In this document: piece after piece, positions 1 to 10,891 of the stretch
Layout: each line of letters starts with the position of its first letter
How positions within the stretch are numbered: the stretch's first letter is position 1
Source of the DNA: an uncultured Pirellula sp.
GTDB taxonomy: Bacteria; Planctomycetota; Planctomycetia; Pirellulales; Pirellulaceae
Reading direction: 5' to 3'
Assembly: GCA_903837255.1 (NCBI GenBank)
Contig: CAILTZ010000279.1
Location: 1-10,891, forward strand
Length of the DNA: 10,891 nucleotides
Made by a program: the position numbers and the translations under genes
The notes under the pieces: generated by a model
What the model was told of the DNA's origin: nothing
Databases searched by the model: none
The model's input: only the letters and a program-made list of their open reading frames with translations

Positions 1-3000
1 CAGGTTCCTCCGATGTGGATCTGTACAAGTTCCAACTTGAGGTTGGCGAACGTGTACGCATCAACGTCAATACAGCAGGCGGACTCGATGCGGCCCTGAA
101 GGTTTTCGATGCAAGCGGTGTAGCTCAAATCGTCAGCAATGGCAACGACGCCACCACTGCCGACAATGTGGCTGCTCCAGGAGAAACCCTGAGCAAGGAT
201 CCGTACATCGATTTCACTGCCACCAAACCTGGTGTTTACTATGCTGCTGTAAGCGCAGCGGGCAACACAACCTATGACCCGCTGTCTCTTGCGGATCGTC
301 GTCAAGGTGCTACCAGCGGTGACTACACCATGACCCTCGAAGTGCTCAAGCCCGAGCAGTTCATTATCACCGTCGACGAAGTCAACACGTACGCCGATGG
401 CGAAACTTTCACCATTCGCCAAGTTTCGGATTTCATTGGGACTTCTAACAATTCTCGAACTTTCGAGTTCACCACAACCGGTGCAACATCGGGCAACAAT
501 ATCCCGGTCTTCATCGGAGCTGAATACCGAGTTCCTGATCTCGCCCGATCGATCGCTGCTGCGATCAACGGGGCAGGGATGACCAACGCACAAAACTTGA
601 ACAACGGCGCGTTTGGTTTCGCTAACCCGCTGGCACCGGTTTCCGCACTGCCTCTTGGTGGTATTAGCGGCTTTAACCCCACTGCCAGTGGTGCCGCTGG
701 AGCGGACCTTGGCATCAACTCCGGTAACATTCGCGGAGCTCAAATCGAAGCTGGTCTCAACCGAACAGCGAACGCCACCAACGACCGCTCCCCGTTCGAT
801 CAAGGTAACTCGCCTGGGTCGAACCACATGGCTCTAGGTTTCGGCCACGATCGGACGATGTCAGGTGGGTTCGGTACGGCTCTTGGTGACGGCACGACAG
901 AGAAATTTGTCGTGGTCCGAAATGCTTACTCCATCACATCGAGTGTTGCTCGCAGGATCAACGGTCGTGTCGGTAGCAACAACGCCAACCAGATCATCCC
1001 CGAAAGCGGGATTAGCATATCCAGTGGTGCTACTCCGACACTGATGAACAATGCTTTCATCAACGTTCAGAGTCCGATCGTTCAAGAACCTCCCACCTAC
1101 GTTGGCACAATTGTCGGCGCCGTAAACCCAGCCCGTCCAGCGGCTGTCGTCGTCGGTGGCAATACGTATCAGTATGTTGAGCCAGCCAAACCCGATTCAA
1201 ACCTGACTTGGGGGAACATCGAAGCAGTCCCAACGAACGTTCCGAACACTAGCTCCGATTTCAACTTCATCGCCTCGGACACGGAAAAACTACTGGTCGA
1301 TTTCCCTGGAAACAACTTCCTCCCCGGAAGCGGTTCTCAAATCATCGATAGCTCGATCAACTCCCTGCCCGAACGTGAAAGCTTCCGAGCGGTCAAGAGT
1401 GCAGTAGGTATCGCCCCGAGCCCGATCCTCGCTCCAGATCGCGATTACTACGGCATCTTCCGTGCCGACGATCCAAACGTCGCTCCGCCTAGCGGCTTGG
1501 GCGGAAACGTCTTCAAAGACCGCGGAGCAGTCGATCGCGCGGACTTTGTTGGACCAACAGCCGTTTCGCTCCTGCCGATCGATAACGATGCACAACAAGT
1601 CGATAGCGATAAGACCGTATCGGTCATCCAACTGACCGGTGGGGTCTACCCGGAATTCCGTATCCAACTCAAAGACGGTTTCGAAACGGCTAACCTCGGT
1701 GGCGGTACCGGAATCAACGACGACTCGGTAATCGGTCGAACCGGTGGCAATCGCCTCCCAGGTTCAGCCGTGACGATCACCGAAAATGGCCGACTCCTGA
1801 TCGAAGGCATCGACTACGCGTTCTCCTACAACACCACCACCAATGAGATCGTTCTCAAGCCTCTGGCTGGCGTATGGAGAAACCAACGCGTCTACGATAT
1901 CAACATCAACAACAAAGACCGATTTGTCGTCAACGCCAACTCAGGTGACCAAATCAACGATGGCGATTCGTTCAGCATCAAAGATTCCAACGGTGGAAAT
2001 GTTACTTTCGAGTACGAAAGTGGATATCGCCTGCAGATTCCCCAAGGCCTCCAACTGAATCTGCCCCTGGCAGGTGGAGGTGCCGGCGGGATCCTCGATG
2101 GCGACCGATTCACCATCAACAGCGGCTCTGCGACCTACGCCTTCGAATTCGATAGCAACGCGAACGTCATCAATCCCGCTGCTCGAGTCGTTCGCTTCAC
2201 TTCGCTCTCGACCAAACAGCAAGTCGTCGAATCGTTGATCGCTGCAATCAACTCGCCAGCAATCCCTGGAGTCGTCGCGAGCTTGACCTCCGACGGAAAC
2301 ATCTTCATCGGTGCTCCAATCGGAACGACCATCGATACCGAATCGGCCCCCTCGATTCAGCCACCGAACCCAACCATCGGCCTGCTGGTTCCGTCCCTAG
2401 GCACCCGCCCAGGCGGAATCACCGACGGCCAAACCTTCAGCATCACCGATGGACGCGTCGCAGTGGTCTTCGAGTACGACTCGGATGGAACAACACAACC
2501 CGGTAACGTCTTGGTCGATATCTCGCAAGCCAACAGCGACCGAGATGTTGCGACCGCAACCCAACTGGCAATCGCCGGTTCCACCTTGGCCCTCCGCTCC
2601 TCGGTCGTCAACGGAAACGTCATTCATCTATCGCTACCGACTGCCGGTCGAGTCGATGTGGTCAGCACAGAACTGAACATCGTCGGAGTAGCTCGTACTA
2701 TCCAGGACGGCCAAACGATTACGATCACGCGAAACATCGCAGGATCGATTGTCTCGACGACCTTCGAGTTCACCACAGACGCGTCGTTTACCGCTGGCAA
2801 CATCCCAGTGATCTTTGGCCCGACCGATACCCAGTCTCAGATCGGTGAAGCCTTGGCCAGCGCGATCGCATCCGCAGGCCTTGGGCTATCGCCTCAGCAT
2901 GTCGGTAACGGCAACGTGATCATCGGTGGATCGTCGGATTACTCGATCTCGGTTGCAAACGCCCCGACCGTCGGACTCTTCGGTCAACCGGGTGTCCAAG

Positions 3001-6000
3001 GCCGTACAACCCTCGAGATCTTCGGTACATTGCTCTTGCAAGTCCCCGCCCGCGGTGGCGCGGACTTGGTCGACAATACTTCCTTTACGATTACGAATCG
3101 AAACCTCACGGCAATCTTCGAGTTCGACGGGAATTTCAGCGGCTCGACCATCCCAGGCAGCCGAACCGTCCGATTCAGCAATGCATCGACCCAAAACGAC
3201 ATCGTCAATGCGATGATCGCTGCAATCAATGCCTACCCAGGCCTTGGTGTAGTGGCTCGCGATGCTGGCAACGGTCGCGTCGACATCGGACTGCTACCGA
3301 CCTCGGCAGTCAACGTTCAAGACAGCAAGTTGACCACAGCCCGGGGCAACGCTCAGGACGGGGATTACTTCAGCATCACCGACGGCGTGAAAACCGTAAC
3401 GTTTGAATTTGAAAATCTGAGCGTCGGCAATGGACGCGATCCTTCGCGTGTCCCGATCCGTTACACCAACCAAGACTCTGTTCAAAGAGTCTACGAAGCG
3501 ATGAAGGCCACGATCAAGTCGTCGGTCCTGAACCTCGATTCGCAGATCACCAGCAACGGTCTCGAACTCTTCGACACGGCCAAGTACCTGACGAACGTCG
3601 ATAATGCACCTTCGCTTCGTCGCACCGGTGTGCCTGGTGGAGCGATTCCGGTCCTGTTCATCCAAGACCCATCGTTTACCGCGATCAATATGCGGGATGC
3701 GATCATCCGGGCAATCAACGGCCTATCGGCAGCCGGAGGAACCTCGCTGGTGGCGAAAGTTCGAGGAGGCTCAACTCTGTTTGTAGAAAACGCTGTGAGC
3801 ATCAGCCCAGAACTCAGCAGCTTCTTCCTGCGAGGCGTCCAAGACAACGCAGGGAACTTCCTCCAAAGCAACCGGATCGACAACGAGACGAAGTTCACGA
3901 TCATTATGCCAGGTGTCGAACTCGACTACGGCGATGCTCCTGATCCGTTCACAACCACTCTGGGCCGATACCCAACCCTCAAGGCCAACGATGGGGCTCG
4001 CCACGTCGTGAGCAACTCGAGCCTGTACCTGGGCGCTGGGATCACCTCGGAAAGCGACGGCAAACCTCAACCACTCGGTGATGGTGACGAAAACGACGAC
4101 GGCGTTTCGTTCCGCTTCCAAGCCAACAGCTACACCGGCACTCAAACTCCGATGTTCAACAAGAATATCGATACCGAGCTTACCGTGACCATGTCGGCGC
4201 CCGGTGTTCTGAACGGTTGGATCGATTTCAACTTTGACGGCGACTGGACAGATCCAGGCGAAAACGTCTTCGACAACGTTGTGTTCAGCTCCGGTAGCCT
4301 GACCCAAACCCTTAAGGTCAGGGTTCCTGCCACCGCCCCGAACGTCTCGCAAGCGACAACCTCGTTCGCTCGCTTCCGAGCATCGACCGCAGGATCGTTA
4401 TCCCCGACCGGCTTGGCGCTTGACGGAGAAGTCGAGGATTACCGAGTAAGCATCGTTCCGGGAACCCCACCGGTAGGAGTCAACGACACCTACACGATGA
4501 ACGAGGATCAATTTGGAGGTCTGATCACCAACGATCCATTCGATTCCGATGGATTCCCCGGCAACAACGGTGTGCTGGCTAACGACATCAATCCGGATCG
4601 CAAGCCTCTATCGGCTCGCTTGGTCAGCCCACCTGCCAACGCAAAGGTCTTTACGTTCCGATCCGATGGAACCTTTGATTACATCCCCAACAATGATTAC
4701 TTCGGCCAAGACTCTTTCGTGTACATCGTTACCGATGGTGTGCTCGACGCTCTGGCCCCTGCGACCGCGTTGATCAATGTCCGTCCAGTCAATGACCCGC
4801 CAATCGCAGGCAACCTAACCTACACGATTGATGAAGATCAACGCTTGGATATCCCAGGCTCGGTGGTTATTGCTGCCTCGGTACCTGGCCCAGCCAACGA
4901 AAGCGATCAGACGCTCAATATCATTGCCGTCGATGCACTTTCGGCACGCGGTGGTAGCGTACGATTCGCAGGAGGTGTGATCTCTTACATCCCTCTGTCG
5001 AACTTTGTGGGCGACGACTCCTTCACGTACACGATCATCGATAACGGTATCACTGGCAACCTCGCCGATCCGCTGACTGCCATCGGTACGATCTTTGTAA
5101 CCGTCGTCGATAAGAACGATCCGCCGATCACGGTCGATAAGACCATTTCGACCAAAGAGGATACTCCGGTCAGCATTACGATCAACGATCTGATCGCCGG
5201 TGACACGGTAGGACCTGCCAATGAGCAGTTGATCCAAACCTTGAACTTCAGCGGAGTGATCAACCCAACGTCCCAAGGTGGACGCGTTGAAGTCGTCGGA
5301 GACCGTGTGATCTACTATCCTGCCAACCACTTCAACGGAACCGATACCTTCGTGTATCTGGTTACCGATGATGGACTGAGCAACGGCCAACCTGATCCGC
5401 AAACCAGCCGCGGTACAGTCACGGTCATCGTCGATCCTGTCAACGATTCGCCGTTTGTGGTCAAACCATTTGGGACAGTCACGGTCCTGGAGGATTCACC
5501 AGAGCGCGAGTTTATTCTCTCGCAGTACTTCAGCGATCCAGATATCGCAACCAATGGCGATGTGCTGACCTACCGAGTCGCTAGCAACAGCAATACCGGG
5601 CTTGTAGAACCAACGTTTGCCGGTGGCAAGATGTTTGTTCGACCCAAGCCTGATCAAAACGGTCAAGCCACGATCGTCATCGAGGCGATGGACCTAGCTG
5701 GCCTGAAAACCACCAACACCCTTCGCTTGGTCGTCACGCCAGTCGATGATGACCCTCGCTTGGTCAGCCCACTGCCTGATCGTACCGTTTCCGAAGATTC
5801 CTTGCCGGTGGTTTTCGAACTGAGCCCAGCTCACTTCTTTGATCCCGACGTAATCAACGGCGACTTCTTGACCTTCACGGCCACAAGTAGCAACACCAAC
5901 GTCGCCACGGTCAGCATCCTGGGCAACCAATTGCAGTTGACACTCGTCCCCAACGCATCGGGCCAAACCACTGTTAATGTGGTCGCTACCGACACGACCG

Positions 6001-6926
6001 GACGCTTTGTCTCCGACTCGTTTATCCTGACGGTCACTCCGGTCAACGACCCACCAGTTGCCAACCCAGATTTCTATGCGACACCGCAAGGCGTCACTTT
6101 GGTGACGACCGACCCGCTGGGTATCTTGACCGCAACTCCTCTCGATGACGGTGTCTTGGCCAACGATAAAGACCCCGAAGGTGACGCGATGACTGCAGCG
6201 ATCGTCACGGCTCCGACACGAGGTACCGTAACGCTCAATGCCAACGGAACGTTCACCTACACCCCAGGTCCAACGGCTCTGTTTGGCTCGACCGACACCT
6301 TCACCTACCGAGCTATCGATGCGTTTGGGGCTGCTAGCCCGCAGACAACCGTAACGATCACCATCGGCAGACCTCCCGCTCCGGCTTACCAAAACCCAAG
6401 CCAGCGTTGGGATGTGAATGCCGACGGGTTTATCTCCCCGATCGACGTTCTGATTCTGGTCAACCTGCTCAATTCGCGCGGTTCGAGCATCCCTGTCGCA
6501 GGGCTCCCTGGACCACCGGATTATGTAGACGTCAACGGGGACAACTTCGTCACCCCGCTGGATGTTTTGGCGGTAATCGACAAGATCAACTCCTCGAGCG
6601 GCAGTGGCGAAGGTGAGCAAATCATCGGCGTCAACAACGCGCCAGCCTTCGAATCGCCAGCCCTCGATTCGATAGTCGTCGAGGTCGGCCGTGGACTGAC
6701 ATCCTCGACCCCAATGCCCGCTTGGGCTGGTATGATGGAGTCTCGGCGTCAAAATGCGTCGAAACTCCAATCGATGCCGCTTGCCAGCATGTTCGCCAAT
6801 AGCAATTGGGATGATGACTTCGACGACCTAGCAGGTTTGCTCGCAAGCCCACAGACCAGCGATGGCGATTCGGACAACCAAAACGACTCGATCGATCAGG
6901 CCCTTATGGACCTCTTCGGCGGCTAA
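1..6926 (+). CDS. Giant modular surface/secreted protein, C-terminal part (PPC, DG/FEF modules, GEVED, cadherin-like repeats, dockerin); 5' partial
   Basis: The reading frame is open from base 3 to the TAA at 6924-6926 (2307 residues). The GTG at 15 is an internal valine in a PPC strand (S-S-D-V-D-L-Y-K-F), so the true start lies upstream. Domain order by base position: PPC-like sandwich (3-350); a DG/FEF module (363-630); a probable end of a right-handed beta-helix (about 640-1540, with G-A-T-P-T-L-M-N-N-A-F and D-R-G-A-V-D-R-A-D-F-V-G-P signatures); an Ig-like segment (about 1545-1910); a DG/FEF array (1950-3850); a GEVED region (3921-4451); six cadherin-like domains (4473-6368); a dockerin (6408-6593); and an acidic tail. 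I see no catalytic motif in this part. PPC, GEVED, cadherin-like and dockerin modules are known from very large planctomycete extracellular proteins. A role in adhesion, matrix or surface structure is inferred; the substrate or partner is unknown. The next gene lies 111 bases downstream in the same direction and shares modules with this one. Confidence 0.93.
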   Translation, partial: GSSDVDLYKFQLEVGERVRINVNTAGGLDAALKVFDASGVAQIVSNGNDATTADNVAAPGETLSKDPYIDFTATKPGVYYAAVSAAGNTTYDPLSLADRRQGATSGDYTMTLEVLKPEQFIITVDEVNTYADGETFTIRQVSDFIGTSNNSRTFEFTTTGATSGNNIPVFIGAEYRVPDLARSIAAAINGAGMTNAQNLNNGAFGFANPLAPVSALPLGGISGFNPTASGAAGADLGINSGNIRGAQIEAGLNRTANATNDRSPFDQGNSPGSNHMALGFGHDRTMSGGFGTALGDGTTEKFVVVRNAYSITSSVARRINGRVGSNNANQIIPESGISISSGATPTLMNNAFINVQSPIVQEPPTYVGTIVGAVNPARPAAVVVGGNTYQYVEPAKPDSNLTWGNIEAVPTNVPNTSSDFNFIASDTEKLLVDFPGNNFLPGSGSQIIDSSINSLPERESFRAVKSAVGIAPSPILAPDRDYYGIFRADDPNVAPPSGLGGNVFKDRGAVDRADFVGPTAVSLLPIDNDAQQVDSDKTVSVIQLTGGVYPEFRIQLKDGFETANLGGGTGINDDSVIGRTGGNRLPGSAVTITENGRLLIEGIDYAFSYNTTTNEIVLKPLAGVWRNQRVYDININNKDRFVVNANSGDQINDGDSFSIKDSNGGNVTFEYESGYRLQIPQGLQLNLPLAGGGAGGILDGDRFTINSGSATYAFEFDSNANVINPAARVVRFTSLSTKQQVVESLIAAINSPAIPGVVASLTSDGNIFIGAPIGTTIDTESAPSIQPPNPTIGLLVPSLGTRPGGITDGQTFSITDGRVAVVFEYDSDGTTQPGNVLVDISQANSDRDVATATQLAIAGSTLALRSSVVNGNVIHLSLPTAGRVDVVSTELNIVGVARTIQDGQTITITRNIAGSIVSTTFEFTTDASFTAGNIPVIFGPTDTQSQIGEALASAIASAGLGLSPQHVGNGNVIIGGSSDYSISVANAPTVGLFGQPGVQGRTTLEIFGTLLLQVPARGGADLVDNTSFTITNRNLTAIFEFDGNFSGSTIPGSRTVRFSNASTQNDIVNAMIAAINAYPGLGVVARDAGNGRVDIGLLPTSAVNVQDSKLTTARGNAQDGDYFSITDGVKTVTFEFENLSVGNGRDPSRVPIRYTNQDSVQRVYEAMKATIKSSVLNLDSQITSNGLELFDTAKYLTNVDNAPSLRRTGVPGGAIPVLFIQDPSFTAINMRDAIIRAINGLSAAGGTSLVAKVRGGSTLFVENAVSISPELSSFFLRGVQDNAGNFLQSNRIDNETKFTIIMPGVELDYGDAPDPFTTTLGRYPTLKANDGARHVVSNSSLYLGAGITSESDGKPQPLGDGDENDDGVSFRFQANSYTGTQTPMFNKNIDTELTVTMSAPGVLNGWIDFNFDGDWTDPGENVFDNVVFSSGSLTQTLKVRVPATAPNVSQATTSFARFRASTAGSLSPTGLALDGEVEDYRVSIVPGTPPVGVNDTYTMNEDQFGGLITNDPFDSDGFPGNNGVLANDINPDRKPLSARLVSPPANAKVFTFRSDGTFDYIPNNDYFGQDSFVYIVTDGVLDALAPATALINVRPVNDPPIAGNLTYTIDEDQRLDIPGSVVIAASVPGPANESDQTLNIIAVDALSARGGSVRFAGGVISYIPLSNFVGDDSFTYTIIDNGITGNLADPLTAIGTIFVTVVDKNDPPITVDKTISTKEDTPVSITINDLIAGDTVGPANEQLIQTLNFSGVINPTSQGGRVEVVGDRVIYYPANHFNGTDTFVYLVTDDGLSNGQPDPQTSRGTVTVIVDPVNDSPFVVKPFGTVTVLEDSPEREFILSQYFSDPDIATNGDVLTYRVASNSNTGLVEPTFAGGKMFVRPKPDQNGQATIVIEAMDLAGLKTTNTLRLVVTPVDDDPRLVSPLPDRTVSEDSLPVVFELSPAHFFDPDVINGDFLTFTATSSNTNVATVSILGNQLQLTLVPNASGQTTVNVVATDTTGRFVSDSFILTVTPVNDPPVANPDFYATPQGVTLVTTDPLGILTATPLDDGVLANDKDPEGDAMTAAIVTAPTRGTVTLNANGTFTYTPGPTALFGSTDTFTYRAIDAFGAASPQTTVTITIGRPPAPAYQNPSQRWDVNADGFISPIDVLILVNLLNSRGSSIPVAGLPGPPDYVDVNGDNFVTPLDVLAVIDKINSSSGSGEGEQIIGVNNAPAFESPALDSIVVEVGRGLTSSTPMPAWAGMMESRRQNASKLQSMPLASMFANSNWDDDFDDLAGLLASPQTSDGDSDNQNDSIDQALMDLFGG
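3..350 (+). other. PPC-like (pre-peptidase C-terminal) beta-sandwich domain in gene 1
   Basis: The visible start has the typical PPC pattern: D-V-D-L-Y-K-F at the first strand, then V-R-I-N-V, a central L-K-V-F-D-A-S-G strand, a P-G-V-Y-Y-A-A-V-S strand, and a closing S-G-D-Y-T-M-T-L-E-V strand. In the second gene the equivalent domain (9234-9554) directly follows a metalloprotease. This suggests that gene 1 may also carry a protease or beta-helix upstream of the window, which cannot be seen. PPC domains are usually secreted, accessory beta-sandwiches with binding or maturation roles. Confidence 0.8.
363..630 (+). repeat. DG/FEF module, first copy in gene 1 (R1)
   Basis: This copy begins with A-D-G-E-T-F-T-I, continues with R-T-F-E-F-T-T-T-G, then N-I-P-V-F-I-G and an A-A-A-I-N helix-like segment. 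It most resembles the copy at 2700-2960, which shares F-E-F-T-T and G-N-I-P-V-I-F-G. It stands apart from the main array, between the PPC domain and the beta-helix-like segment. I recognise the pattern as one seen in large planctomycete proteins but cannot give a certain family name. Confidence 0.65.
1950..3850 (+). repeat. Array of DG/FEF modules in gene 1 (R2-R7 plus a C-terminal half copy)
   Basis: The degenerate unit is roughly 90-110 residues: a short L-x-L-x-V-P-x-x-G-G strand, D-G/N-x-x-F-T/S-I, then F-E-F/Y-D/E, a V-x-F strand, a helix ending A-A-I-N, L-G-V-V-A, and G-N-G-x-V-x-I-G. Core starts are near 1950 (N-terminal half only), 2091, 2418, 2700, 3066 (with the leading strand from 3024) and 3351. 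A C-terminal half with I-P-V-L-F-I and I-I-R-A-I-N lies at 3639-3850. Copies are diverged at DNA level, so the array is old or under diversifying drift. The alternating strands suggest a beta-rich stalk or adhesive fold, which is inference. Confidence 0.7.
3921..4451 (+). other. GEVED-type domain in gene 1
   Basis: The segment opens with L-D-Y-G-D-A-P-D-P (3921-3947), contains G-D-G-D-E-N-D-D-G-V, then G-W-I-D-F-N-F-D-G-D-W and A-R-F-R-A-S, and ends with the diagnostic G-E-V-E-D-Y (4425-4442). This is the classical layout of the GEVED family, found in bacterial extracellular proteins and often followed, as here, by cadherin-like or Ig-like repeats. The acidic clusters suggest calcium binding (inference). 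Confidence 0.88.
4473..6368 (+). repeat. Six tandem cadherin-like / bacterial Ig-like domains in gene 1
   Basis: Unit boundaries fall after the linker motif P-V-N-D-P-P or a variant: units start near 4473, 4803, 5127, 5454, 5757 and 6057. Units 1 and 6 are of the G-V-L-A-N-D ... G-T-F-x-Y-x-P type. Units 2 and 3 share G-P-A-N-E ... Q-T-L-N and a D-x-F-x-Y strand. Units 4 and 5 share E-D-S, F-x-D-P-D, N-G-D-x-L-T and V-T-P-V-D/N-D. Such repeats form stiff, often calcium-stabilised stalks in extracellular adhesins. Pairwise similarity suggests local duplication. Confidence 0.85.
6408..6593 (+). other. Type I dockerin-like domain in gene 1
   Basis: Two EF-hand-like calcium loops are present: D-V-N-A-D-G-F-I-S-P-I-D-V (from 6411) and D-V-N-G-D-N-F-V-T-P-L-D-V (6528-6566). 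Each has acidic or amide residues at loop positions 1, 3, 5 and 12 and is followed by a helix (L-I-L-V-N-L-L-N and L-A-V-I-D-K-I-N). Dockerins bind cohesins in cellulosomes. In planctomycetes they are common at the ends of giant proteins without an obvious cohesin, and none is visible here. Confidence 0.85.
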
Positions 6927-6947
6927 AAAAACACACACTCACCGGCA

Positions 6948-6975
6948 AGCGGAACATTGGAAACAGCGTTCCGCT
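6948..6975 (+). terminator. Intergenic 8-bp perfect hairpin, possible weak terminator of gene 1
   Basis: AGCGGAAC (6948-6955) is exactly complementary to GTTCCGCT (6968-6975) across a 12-base loop, starting 22 bases after the stop codon. There is no T-tract after it on the plus strand, so it is not a canonical intrinsic terminator. A run of seven A (6925-6931) lies 16 bases to its left, too far to make a clean minus-strand terminator. It may be a pause site, an mRNA-stabilising stem, or chance. Confidence 0.3.
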
Positions 6976-7037
6976 CGCTCAATTGACTTATCCATTACCT
7001 TCCATTTTTGTACCGTACGGTTCCAAGGTTCGTTCAA

Positions 7038-10000
7038 ATGGGAATTGACGCATCCAGATCTGCAAACAGCAATCGTTCCAAGCAGCAAGAACGACGCAAA
7101 GGCTTTCGCAATATCCTGTGCGAGAACCTGGAGCGTCGCGAAGTCATGGCAGGGGATATCCTCGACCTTGACTTCCGTCTCTTGTCGGTCGCTCCGAACA
7201 CCGGCGAGACGTTCTCGACGACTCGGTCCAACACCCTCAGTGAGTCCCCCAGGGAGTTGATCTTCCGATTCGCCGGTGGCGACGATGTGCGTCAATCGAC
7301 ACTTCGCAACGGGATTCGAATCTCCCGCTCGGGTGGCGATGGCGTCTTCGGGACCGGTGGCGTTTCAACCGACATCATCGTAACGCCCGAGTACCTGGAT
7401 TTTGCAGATACGGCCAACCGCCGAGTCGTGGTGGCTCGATTCTCACAACCGCTAACAGACGACCTTTACAACGTAGAAATCTTTGGCGCGGATATTCCAG
7501 CCCAAGGCATCAATGCGGTTCGAAACGTGGTCAACGATCCGCTCAAGCCGCGCAAATCAGGGACCGATCGTGATAGCTACGTGTTCAACCTCGAGCTCGG
7601 CACCAAAATCACGGCCATCGTCCCGCAACCGATGAATCGCGCGACAAATGGAACCTTGTCCCAAAAGCTCGATACGATCGATGTCTACTTCAATGATTCC
7701 GAACTCTACGATCGCAAAATCTCCACAGGGGATCTTGCCCCTAAAGCAGACCCAACCGTTGTCGATCCACGTTTCTACAACCTGATTGCGACCACCGATT
7801 CGGTCAGCCCGTTTGACGACCGAGTCTTCAACCCGATCAAGGTCACGTTTGATCCGGCGACCAAGATGGCTTCGCTACAGTTTGCCGGCCCTATCAACTC
7901 CTTGGCAGGTTCTGGCACGTATCGATTGCGCGTCGGATCGGATTCACCGATCTCGTCGGTCGTTAACAACACGACCGTTCCGCTGGTCACGCCCGCTACC
8001 GATCCGCAAGGCTATCTCAGCGGAGCTTATAGCATCAACTCCGGAGTACCGATTTCAAACAGTTTCTCTTCGATTTTTGAGCAAGAGATCCGAACCGTCT
8101 CGAACCCACTCCAACTTGATTTCCCTGGGAGCAGCCAAGAGCCCGGGCACCGCGACATCCAAGAGGACCGATCGCTGCGCTCTCCGGATGTGATTTGGGG
8201 GCCACCGAACTTTGCTCCCGATTCAAACGCCGAAATCCAGAGCATCCGATACAACTTCATGGAGAACCAAGCCTACGGCGTGGACTCCTCAGGTCGACGA
8301 CTCTTCACATCGGTTTCCACCGAGCAAAAGCAACGGATTCGTGAAGTCTTTGAATTCTATTCAAGGTACCTCGGTGTGGACTTCCGGGAATATGCTGGTC
8401 CAATCGGATATCTGTTGTTGGCGATTCCCCAAAACGGGGGACAGTCTCTGATCGATAACACTTCGTTCACCCTGACCAACAATGGCATCACCGCTATTTT
8501 TGAGTTCGATGGCGATGGCAGTGGGTCGACGATCCCAGGCAGCCAAACCATTCCATTTACAGCCGCATCGACGCAAGCCGATGTCATCAACGCGGCGATT
8601 TCCGCGATCAATAGTTTTCCAAAACTAGGTCTAATCGCCACCGACACCGGAAATGGCAGCATCAATCTCGGACTGATTCCCAACTCGGCAATCAAGATTC
8701 CAGTGATTCTGCAAACTATCCTGACGACCTCCCGAGACACTCGAGGATTTTTAAGTGTCATCGTCGGTGACATGATCCCAATCAACAGCACCATAAGCGG
8801 ACCAGGAGATTTGCTTGGTGTAGCTGGGACCACGACGGATCCCGATGACCCCAACACATCTTGGGATATGGTCATCATGGACGGTTCCGAACCTTGGGAC
8901 ACCGCTTTTGGCTTTGGAGTCTCTCAAAAACCGCTGGGTGGTGAAGTCGTTCCCACGGCTCCCGCACCCGGTCAGTTGACCAACCCTCAAGACGGTCCGT
9001 TTAGTTTCTTCACCACCGCAATGCACGAGATAGGGCACATGCTCGGTCTTGACCACACCTACGATCTGCCCGCTGGCACGATTATGGGTAGCGACAACAA
9101 CGGTGGCACGACCAATGCAAGCGGCGGAGTGGTCGGAACTCGACTCAACTCGAGCGCCAATCCGCTCGAACAAATCTTCCCAGGCACGATCGATCAAATC
9201 CACGGTCAACATGCCTTCCGACCCGACAACCGAGATGTCGATCTTTATCAATTCAAATTGACATCCAACGGCCAAGTCCGCCTGGAAACCATCGCCGAAC
9301 GCCTCAACGATTCGAGCAACCTCGATACGTACCTGACATTGCTCAAGCGGGACTCGGTCACCGGCGCTTTGTCGATCGTTTCGGTCAACAACAACTACTT
9401 CAGCCAAGACTCCTTGATCGATGTTCCGCTGACGGCCGGCGAGTACTTTGTGGCTGTCACCGGCAAAGGAAACGAAGACAACGACCCCCAAGTTCTCGAC
9501 ACCGGAAGCGGAGCGACCAGCCAAGGCCGCTATCAACTCCGTTTCGATTTCAAGAGCACCAACGCTAGCAGCATCTCCGAGCAGAGCTTCACATCGACGG
9601 CCGTCGGATCGGCATTAGATGGCGATGGCGATGGCATCGCTGGCGGCGACTTCAACTTCTGGTTCCGCGCCGCCGGTGCTTACGGTACCGCATCGGCTAC
9701 ACCTCGCACCTTGATCGTCGACAAAGCCTACTCAGGCCTGACAACCCTAGGCACTCTGGCTCAGCCCTTCAAAACGATCTCTGCGGCAGTAAGCGCAGCT
9801 CAACCAGGGGATATCATCCGCTTGGCAGGCCTCGATCCAGCCAATCCGCTTCCTCAATTAACCACCGTAAAAGCTTACGAAATCGGTAAAGGTGCGTTCG
9901 GCTCGACCCTCTCCGACGGTGATCGGCTCGAGGTCCCCAAAGGAGTCACCTTGATGATCGACGCCGGTGCGATTCTTAAGCTTGGCAACGCACGAGTGAT

Positions 10001-10891
10001 GGTCGGTTCCGATGGCGTGATCGATCGCTCTGGCGCTGCGATCCAAGTCCTCGGTACTCCAACCCTACCGGTTTACTTTACCGCTTACTCGGATCAGTCT
10101 TTGGGAATAGACACCAATCCGCTCGAGACTACACCCAAACCGGGCGACTGGGGCGGGATCGAGATCCGCAACGAGGTCGATCGTTCTCAAGGCCGATTCG
10201 ATCGCGAGCGCGAAGGTATATTCCTGAACACCATCTCCAATGCAAGGATGACCTACGGTGGTGGTTTGGTCGGCTCAGGAGCTCAAGCCAAGGTCACCAG
10301 TCCAATCGAATTGAGTGAAGCCCGTCCGCTGATTTTCGGTAATTCGATTACGCGCAGTGCCGATTCGGCCATGAGCGCCGATCCGAACAGCTTTGAGGAA
10401 ACCCTCTTTACCGAACCGCGATATCAAAACGCCGGCGCGTTTGTGCCCGATTACCGTCGCGTCGGTCCGGTCATTTATAACAATGACATTCGCAACAACA
10501 CCATCAACGGCCTGTTCGTTCGCGTTGAAACTCTTCCCGGTCAACCGACCAAATCGCTTACGACCCACGCACGGATCGATGACTCCGAAGTCACCTTGGT
10601 CTTTGGCGAAAACTTGCTGATCGCAGGAACCCCCGGCGGAGCTATCAATGAGATCGCAGGACCGAATACTTCGCTGATGCTCTTGACGAACGTTGCACCG
10701 ACCTCCGGTAGCGGATTCGTCAATGCCTCGGCCCTTGAGTACATCGTGACTTACATGGACCGCTTCGGCCAAGAGAGCCTGCCGAGCGTCAGCAAAAGCG
10801 CCGTGGTTCCGGCAGGCCGATCGATGCGTCTATCGAATATTCCTGTCGCAACCAGCGACTACGTATCGCGACGCATCTATCGCCGTGTGAA
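7038..10891 (+). CDS. Giant modular secreted metzincin-type metalloprotease with PPC and beta-helix domains; 3' partial
   Basis: The frame runs open from the ATG at 7038 to the window edge (1284 full codons, no stop). This is the first ATG after an in-frame TGA at 6984; a weak AAGG (7025-7028) lies nine bases upstream. Domain order by residue: basic N-terminus with L-E-R-R-E-V-M-A-G-D (31-40) and no hydrophobic signal peptide; Ig-like domain (about 45-160); second Ig-like domain (about 190-302); metalloprotease (about 402-700) with H-E-I-G-H-M-L-G-L-D-H (663-673) and Met-turn T-I-M-G (Met683); PPC domain (733-839); D-G-D-G-D-G-I-A-G-G linker (about 861-870); beta-helix (about 892-1170) containing G-D-W-G-G-I; and a fibronectin-III-like segment with R-R-I-Y-R-R at the edge. 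The zinc ligands (His663, His667, His673) and catalytic Glu664 are intact, so peptidase activity is likely. The substrate is unknown. A DG/FEF module interrupts the protease domain at residues 456-566. Confidence 0.92.
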   Translation, partial: MGIDASRSANSNRSKQQERRKGFRNILCENLERREVMAGDILDLDFRLLSVAPNTGETFSTTRSNTLSESPRELIFRFAGGDDVRQSTLRNGIRISRSGGDGVFGTGGVSTDIIVTPEYLDFADTANRRVVVARFSQPLTDDLYNVEIFGADIPAQGINAVRNVVNDPLKPRKSGTDRDSYVFNLELGTKITAIVPQPMNRATNGTLSQKLDTIDVYFNDSELYDRKISTGDLAPKADPTVVDPRFYNLIATTDSVSPFDDRVFNPIKVTFDPATKMASLQFAGPINSLAGSGTYRLRVGSDSPISSVVNNTTVPLVTPATDPQGYLSGAYSINSGVPISNSFSSIFEQEIRTVSNPLQLDFPGSSQEPGHRDIQEDRSLRSPDVIWGPPNFAPDSNAEIQSIRYNFMENQAYGVDSSGRRLFTSVSTEQKQRIREVFEFYSRYLGVDFREYAGPIGYLLLAIPQNGGQSLIDNTSFTLTNNGITAIFEFDGDGSGSTIPGSQTIPFTAASTQADVINAAISAINSFPKLGLIATDTGNGSINLGLIPNSAIKIPVILQTILTTSRDTRGFLSVIVGDMIPINSTISGPGDLLGVAGTTTDPDDPNTSWDMVIMDGSEPWDTAFGFGVSQKPLGGEVVPTAPAPGQLTNPQDGPFSFFTTAMHEIGHMLGLDHTYDLPAGTIMGSDNNGGTTNASGGVVGTRLNSSANPLEQIFPGTIDQIHGQHAFRPDNRDVDLYQFKLTSNGQVRLETIAERLNDSSNLDTYLTLLKRDSVTGALSIVSVNNNYFSQDSLIDVPLTAGEYFVAVTGKGNEDNDPQVLDTGSGATSQGRYQLRFDFKSTNASSISEQSFTSTAVGSALDGDGDGIAGGDFNFWFRAAGAYGTASATPRTLIVDKAYSGLTTLGTLAQPFKTISAAVSAAQPGDIIRLAGLDPANPLPQLTTVKAYEIGKGAFGSTLSDGDRLEVPKGVTLMIDAGAILKLGNARVMVGSDGVIDRSGAAIQVLGTPTLPVYFTAYSDQSLGIDTNPLETTPKPGDWGGIEIRNEVDRSQGRFDREREGIFLNTISNARMTYGGGLVGSGAQAKVTSPIELSEARPLIFGNSITRSADSAMSADPNSFEETLFTEPRYQNAGAFVPDYRRVGPVIYNNDIRNNTINGLFVRVETLPGQPTKSLTTHARIDDSEVTLVFGENLLIAGTPGGAINEIAGPNTSLMLLTNVAPTSGSGFVNASALEYIVTYMDRFGQESLPSVSKSAVVPAGRSMRLSNIPVATSDYVSRRIYRRV
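7128..7157 (+). other. LEPR-type N-terminal motif of gene 2
   Basis: Residues 31-40 read L-E-R-R-E-V-M-A-G-D, preceded by a basic stretch (residues 13-24) and C-E-N. This resembles the LEPR-x-L-L type N-terminal motif seen near the start of very large planctomycete and related proteins. Its place near residue 35 supports the chosen ATG. A role in targeting or export is suspected from its constant position but is not shown by the sequence. Confidence 0.75.
8241..9140 (+). other. Metzincin/matrixin-like zinc protease domain in gene 2
   Basis: The domain starts near S-I-R-Y-N-F, runs through Q-R-I-R-E-V-F-E-F-Y-S-R-Y-L-G-V-D-F (the helix and strand before the active site), is interrupted by a DG/FEF module, and resumes with G-F-L-S-V-I-V-G-D-M (8745-8774). 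It then reaches T-T-A-M-H-E-I-G-H-M-L-G-L-D-H (active-site codons 9024-9056) and the Met-turn methionine at 9084-9086. The H-E-x-x-H-x-x-G-x-x-H signature plus a Met-turn ten residues after the third histidine is the metzincin hallmark. Subfamily assignment is uncertain. Confidence 0.87.
8403..8735 (+). repeat. DG/FEF module inserted within the protease domain of gene 2 (R8)
   Basis: From I-G-Y-L-L-L-A-I-P and L-I-D-N-T-S-F-T-L-T-N to L-T-T-S-R this segment matches the gene 1 copy at 3024-3344. That copy has G-T-L-L-L-Q-V-P, L-V-D-N-T-S-F-T-I-T-N, shared T-A-I-F-E-F-D-G and S-G-S-T-I-P-G-S, and L-T-T-A-R. A hand alignment of the 84-residue core gives 51 identities. The flanks, F-R-E-Y-A-G and G-F-L-S-V-I-V-G-D-M, look like adjacent pieces of the protease fold. 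An intein is unlikely because no Cys/Ser and His-Asn splice-junction residues are seen. Confidence 0.75.
9234..9554 (+). other. PPC domain in gene 2
   Basis: It follows the protease after the linker H-G-Q-H-A-F-R-P-D-N-R, opening with D-V-D-L-Y-Q-F-K-L, then L-D-T-Y-L-T-L-L, a D-S-L-I-D-V-P-L strand, A-G-E-Y-F-V-A-V-T-G, and ending G-R-Y-Q-L-R-F-D-F. The order protease then PPC is the standard family arrangement. It matches the PPC-like domain at the left edge of the window. Confidence 0.85.
9618..10560 (+). other. Acidic DGDGDG linker and right-handed beta-helix region in gene 2
   Basis: A D-G-D-G-D-G-I-A-G-G-D-F-N-F-W-F segment (9618-9665) precedes L-I-V-D-K-A-Y-S-G and T-I-S-A-A-V-S-A-A-Q-P-G-D-I-I-R-L, the usual entry of DUF1565-like parallel beta-helices. 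Later signatures are P-K-G-V-T-L-M-I-D-A-G-A-I-L-K, P-G-D-W-G-G-I-E-I and N-N-D-I-R-N-N-T-I-N-G-L-F-V-R. Such helices in extracellular proteins bind or cleave polysaccharides or act as passive stalks. No catalytic residues can be assigned here. Confidence 0.72.
10704..10891 (+). other. Fibronectin-III-like segment at the right edge of gene 2
   Basis: A-L-E-Y-I-V-T-Y-M-D-R-F-G-Q-E-S-L-P-S, then M-R-L-S-N-I-P and S-R-R-I-Y-R-R form a beta-strand pattern seen in fibronectin-III-like units that follow beta-helices in related giant proteins. The domain is cut by the window end. Confidence 0.5.

Follow-up and report, generated by a model that had tools for sequence, protein, structure and literature searches.

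An F-type module in frame within the metzincin domain of a giant Pirellula protein, with empty sites in relatives

In the gelatinases MMP-2 and MMP-9, modules lie within the catalytic domain of a matrix metalloproteinase (MMP) and form collagen-binding domains, as the available part of PMC3024946 describes. Here we analyse a comparable arrangement in a 10,891-bp stretch of DNA (the window). This is the entire contig C279 of a Pirellula metagenome-assembled genome (MAG) of 912 contigs and 83% completeness, hereafter the source MAG, and it carries the end of one giant gene (gene 1, 3' part, up to 6926) and the beginning of another (gene 2, 5' part, from 7038). In the source MAG and in one further genome (G170), a loop of the gene 2 metzincin domain contains, in frame, a copy of an F-type module, one of the DG/FEF module types of gene 1; in relatives this loop is empty. 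As in the gelatinases, a foreign module lies inside an MMP-type catalytic domain that keeps an intact zinc motif (PMC3024946, same part). It differs in that one module of another fold occupies another loop, in two bacterial genomes, with the source type in the adjacent gene. The gelatinase modules are of fibronectin type II (FnII), whereas the insert described here has no name in Pfam or NCBIfam and matches no Pfam family at E values up to 10. Gelatinase modules are inserted just before the zinc helix; here, about 96 residues separate the end of the insert from HEIGH. The preliminary description of this DNA had called the insertion unusual, which stands within this protease family, although the gelatinases already provide a precedent for insertion into a metzincin catalytic domain. 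What is new is the module, the site, and the presence of source type, empty form and filled form within one genus.

Other described systems share single features with the locus. In flagellinolysins, too, a metallopeptidase and a flagellin-type part are combined by domain insertion, but there the protease is the guest and here it is the host (PMC5595980, in the portion available). The inserted domains of phage tail sheaths, flagellins and FliD have no significant sequence link to the module, whose host, in contrast, is a protease. Cytophagalysin, a bacterial metzincin of the pappalysin family, is likewise secreted and has additions within its catalytic domain, but these are helices between strands rather than a whole module, and its further domains come after the catalytic domain (PMC11674741, in the sections available). 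The planctosome proposed for freshwater planctomycetes combines a dockerin-bearing extracellular protein with zinc peptidases, and gene 1 bears a dockerin; the peptidases named in the accessible text of that paper, however, are M12B-like and M14 (PMC6461901). A limited literature search found no paper combining domain insertion with a metzincin, nor a relevant planctomycete protease case.

The insertion is defined by comparison with orthologues; among the relatives found by name are MAGs labelled Pirellula, strains of Rhodopirellula and other Pirellulaceae (G numbers denote genomes, L numbers fetched loci, and P0001 the gene 2 protein). At the site the orthologues read EYSGP-TSP-GIFNIIVGDM, and the source MAG reads GP-IGYLLL...TTSRDTRG-FLS, with GPIGY, TSRDT and HEIGH starting at residues 454, 564 and 663. 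Residues about 456-569 (8403..8744, + strand) stand in for about three orthologue residues, a net gain of 111 residues or 333 nt. This is the very length of the interval first noted, and both the proposed splitting of the domain by a module of about 110 residues and its placement some 96 residues ahead of the zinc helix hold. On either side the metzincin core continues, as residues 369-455 (8142..8402, +; profile positions 1-75), conserved in orthologues, and residues 570-734 (8745..9239, +; profile positions 76-209), with a predicted MMP fold. On the two sides of the insert (residues 1-455, and 570 onwards), protein identity to orthologues is 94 and 94% for G123, 91 and 87% for G200, 89 and 86% for G177, 81 and 84% for G207, and 67 and 75% for G162. 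The only unbroken match is in G170 (locus L053), a separate MAG, at 89% over residues 1-1284.

Wider scans gave the same picture. A 363-residue query run against 27 genomes of the genus matched at full length only in the source MAG and G170; 21 others gave both halves without the insert, 19 of them breaking at query residue 83-85 and two weak matches (G146 and G183) at 96 and 98. No clear pair of halves was found in G201, G204, G205 and G206, of which G204 has a match at 96-227. Among the matches listed from 199 family genomes and 396 order genomes, the insert and both junctions are spanned only in the two carriers. In 48 of 50 aligned protease domains the site holds 0-7 residues, compared with 108 in the source MAG and G170. 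A domain profile gave 80 matches on the fetched loci and the source MAG, some of them fragments not reaching the site; the insert splits the match in the source MAG (at profile positions 75/76) and in G170, which is present twice (L053 and L135). Applied to 86 database proteins and the source MAG, it gave 96 matches, of which 94 (85 proteins, including that of G123) cross the site uninterrupted, with 17-29 residues separating profile positions 68 and 84; the remaining two are the halves of the source MAG domain. Neither of the two outcomes named beforehand as refuting the insertion was seen: the segment is missing from homologues, and it is predicted to fold independently. Database searches for further insert-bearing proteins, restricted to proteins 0.55-1.75 times the query length, returned four matches covering at most 26% of the region with P0001 and two covering at most 67% with the G170 protein, and no relative was found in a viral collection. 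Gene 2 of G189 (L056 near 9362-9380; L009) is frame-broken by a short deletion adjoining the insertion loop, and its frame break likewise splits the profile match; this suggests an assembly error or an indel-prone spot.

The neighbouring gene had been said to carry the same module, and this is borne out and narrowed to module type F. Gene 1 holds, all on the + strand, module A (a shorter stretch, 342..572), C (2043..2372), D (2376..2687), E (2673..3002), F (3018..3338) and G (3336..3638), in an order that is constant in the genus genomes for which the region was fetched, some copies of A not being found. Module F is the nearest kin of the insert in the source MAG, with 54-55% protein identity (E 5e-37 and 4e-35 in two comparisons) and 60-63% DNA identity. 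A tree built on 82 modules of 16 genomes, which has few columns for its rows and long branches (a program warning), shows C (99/95), D (100/99), E (96/95) and G (100/99) as separate clades, whereas both inserts group with F (99/99). Trees in which the inserts were tied to F from seven close genomes, from six, or from the source MAG and G170 only were not rejected (approximately unbiased test, p-AU 0.38, 0.51 and 0.24). Given this grouping and these placements, an F-type module is almost certainly the source; a local copy from gene 1 would be the simplest reading, not a proven one. A chance match was rejected on the E values and on the same insert in G170. At the insert edges we looked for a target-site duplication or mobile element and found short repeats only, none flanking the insert; at a DNA identity of 60-63% to F, any target-site duplication would have decayed. 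No tandem array lies at the insertion site.

The insert is predicted to fold both in place within the protease and alone (mean confidence score, pLDDT, 88), and very probably folds independently. The model of the protease domain aligns to MMP catalytic domains, and its fold is predicted to close around the insert with the zinc motif intact. By profile, the M10-like domain scores slightly below the curated cut-off (PF00413, 23.6 bits against 24), and many insert-free relatives of gene 2 have a precomputed PF00413 match. The catalytic residues, first noted as intact, are indeed kept: HEIGHMLGLDH (residues 663-673; 9024..9056, +) has the HExxHxxGxxH form of M10 metzincins, and the motif is intact in both carriers. 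Across the 50 aligned domains, HExxHxxGxx(H/D) is kept in 27 and lost in Rhodopirellula-type relatives and gene-1 paralogues. Since the motif is intact in both carriers and lost in some paralogues, the host of the insertion is apparently a working enzyme. The gene-1-type paralogues have a metzincin-like domain without the zinc motif (ASIGxxLGLxx and similar; L132:17924-18526, L136:18273-18875, L140:17662-18252, L142:6800-7369, L143:5592-6191 and L150:1160-1726), and a dead protease domain therefore likely neighbours a live one. In Rhodopirellula-type relatives (L065, L066, L067 and L069-L074) the motif is degenerate (RGIGNLLGIGN and similar), which suggests that activity was lost in part of this family. 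For the module itself, a profile search of the PDB gave no sequence relative (best E 0.42; FliD E 1.7), Flagellin_IN matched 2 of 66 modules weakly (best E 0.023), and a Foldseek likeness to phage tail sheath and flagellar domains is not significant by itself.

The contig is a mosaic relative to G123. Windowed identity to G123 is 99-100% over 1-3000, 90-99% over 3001-4600, 74-84% over 4601-7000, 89-95% over 7001-8200, 79-83% around the insert and 86-94% after 9000, leaving a G170-like island (8200..8900, +) within an otherwise G123-like part of gene 2. Sites shared by the source MAG with G170 only number 19 inside 8200-8900 and 29 outside, and those shared with G123 only number 4 and 128 (Fisher p 2e-9, with limits set after the windowed identity was seen and with sites that are not independent). 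At the protein level, compared with five insert-free relatives, all 16 positions shared only with G170 fall within P0001 398-738, three of them (456, 568 and 569) being alignment-dependent positions at the insert edges. These 16 may reflect a shared tract or co-adaptation with the insert. One of them is M668 in the zinc helix. Contig C767 of the source MAG, which carries a 5' part of gene 1, shares 98% identity with G123 across 3189 bp. Such similarity, despite an rpoB DNA identity to G123 of 82.5%, may reflect a recent interspecies exchange or a mixed bin. MutS, which adjoins gene 1 in G123 and was sought for dating the mosaic, was not found in the incomplete source MAG.

We propose, with a probability of about 0.78, that an F-type module entered the metzincin loop in a single event in the lineage leading to the source MAG and G170, from the empty state still seen in orthologues at 81-94% identity to the source MAG, and has been maintained by purifying selection. 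The insert would be an accessory surface domain, putatively for binding or spacing, rather than a change to catalysis, and would place the protease beside a matrix, substrate or partner also contacted by the gene-1 modules; this role is tentative. Interspecies exchange would then have replaced much of gene 2 with G123-like sequence, sparing the insert-bearing island either since the insert is of use or since it impedes recombination. Taken jointly, a within-genus move into the neighbour's protease fold, a constrained guest, an insertion-friendly fold that flagellar and phage-tail domains also have, a new exosite and a tract kept as useful are unlikely all to apply.

Several observations weigh against this proposal. 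Between the source MAG and G170 the ratio of nonsynonymous to synonymous substitution rates (dN/dS) is 0.105 for the insert (dS 1.37), 0.053 for module F, 0.008 for the 5' flank and 0.043 for the 3' flank, values that are rough because dS is near saturation. By these ratios the insert is constrained by purifying selection, although less than its surroundings, and its evolution is faster than that of module F, as would also be expected of a passenger. The insert branch is long (0.3-0.44), and when two C modules are added to a smaller tree, their rows join the F rows on a long branch in an unresolved fork. The rpoB gene barely resolves the position of the source MAG (identity 83.6% to G177, 83.4% to G170 and 82.9% to G200), with G170 as a weakly supported sister (91/49), so the insert may have been transferred between the two carriers. 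The G123-like stretches may also come partly from a mixed assembly, of which G170 is independent.

Among the alternatives, the most serious, if still the less probable account, is that the module is a neutral passenger which landed in a length-tolerant loop and was kept since it folds harmlessly. The loop does vary in length elsewhere (16 extra residues in the four loci L076-L079), the insert evolves faster than module F, and only two carriers were found among the matches listed; yet the sequences point to purifying selection across a divergence of dS above 1, and the insert tract persisted while its flanks turned G123-like, although a heterology barrier to recombination would give the same pattern. 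A gating or remodelling of the active-site cleft by the insert, the substrate-access role first suggested, is in our view rather unlikely. In MMP topology the insertion site presumably links strand II to strand III, away from the cleft-lining strand. It is also unlike the gelatinase site beside the zinc helix. The idea draws on the embedding of the insert in the catalytic domain and on the gelatinase FnII modules, which inside their catalytic domain form collagen-binding domains (PMC3024946, same part).

The remaining two alternatives are very improbable. If the segment were ancestral and lost in other lineages, for which the weak rpoB resolution near the two carriers leaves some room, the loop would hardly be empty in near and distant relatives alike, and the insert would not be expected to group with module F; ancestral presence was rejected on the empty loop in 48 of 50 aligned and 94 of 94 unsplit database domains. 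An insert stitched into the contig from gene 1 during assembly would be in keeping with a mosaic contig in a fragmented, incomplete MAG, but in the separate MAG G170 an insert of 74% DNA identity occupies the same position, and the insert is only 60-63% DNA-identical to module F.

Both genes encode giant proteins of secreted type. Gene 1 (3..6926, +), cut at its 5' end, encodes PPC, DG/FEF, GEVED, cadherin-like and dockerin parts. Gene 2 (7038..10891, +), cut at its 3' end by the contig end, starts at the ATG at 7038, in agreement with the start of the G123 orthologue, which has a full length of 6369 aa; the open frames in G123 span 5742 residues for gene 1 and 6386 for gene 2. Also in gene 2 are a planctomycete-extracellular motif that scores weakly (13.5 bits against a cut-off of 25.5) and, behind the protease, a PPC domain at residues 733-809 (9234..9464, +) slightly below the Pfam cut-off (PF04151, 25 bits against 25.9). 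No Rfam family was found in the window.

Nested enzyme domains are mostly old, and the steps of their formation are lost. Here source type, empty acceptor and filled product all occur within one genus, and the acceptance of a guest of about 111 residues can therefore be tested on natural proteins. For the DG/FEF modules that giant planctomycete surface proteins carry, and which in gene 1 have no Pfam name, the insert also offers a lead to the fold.
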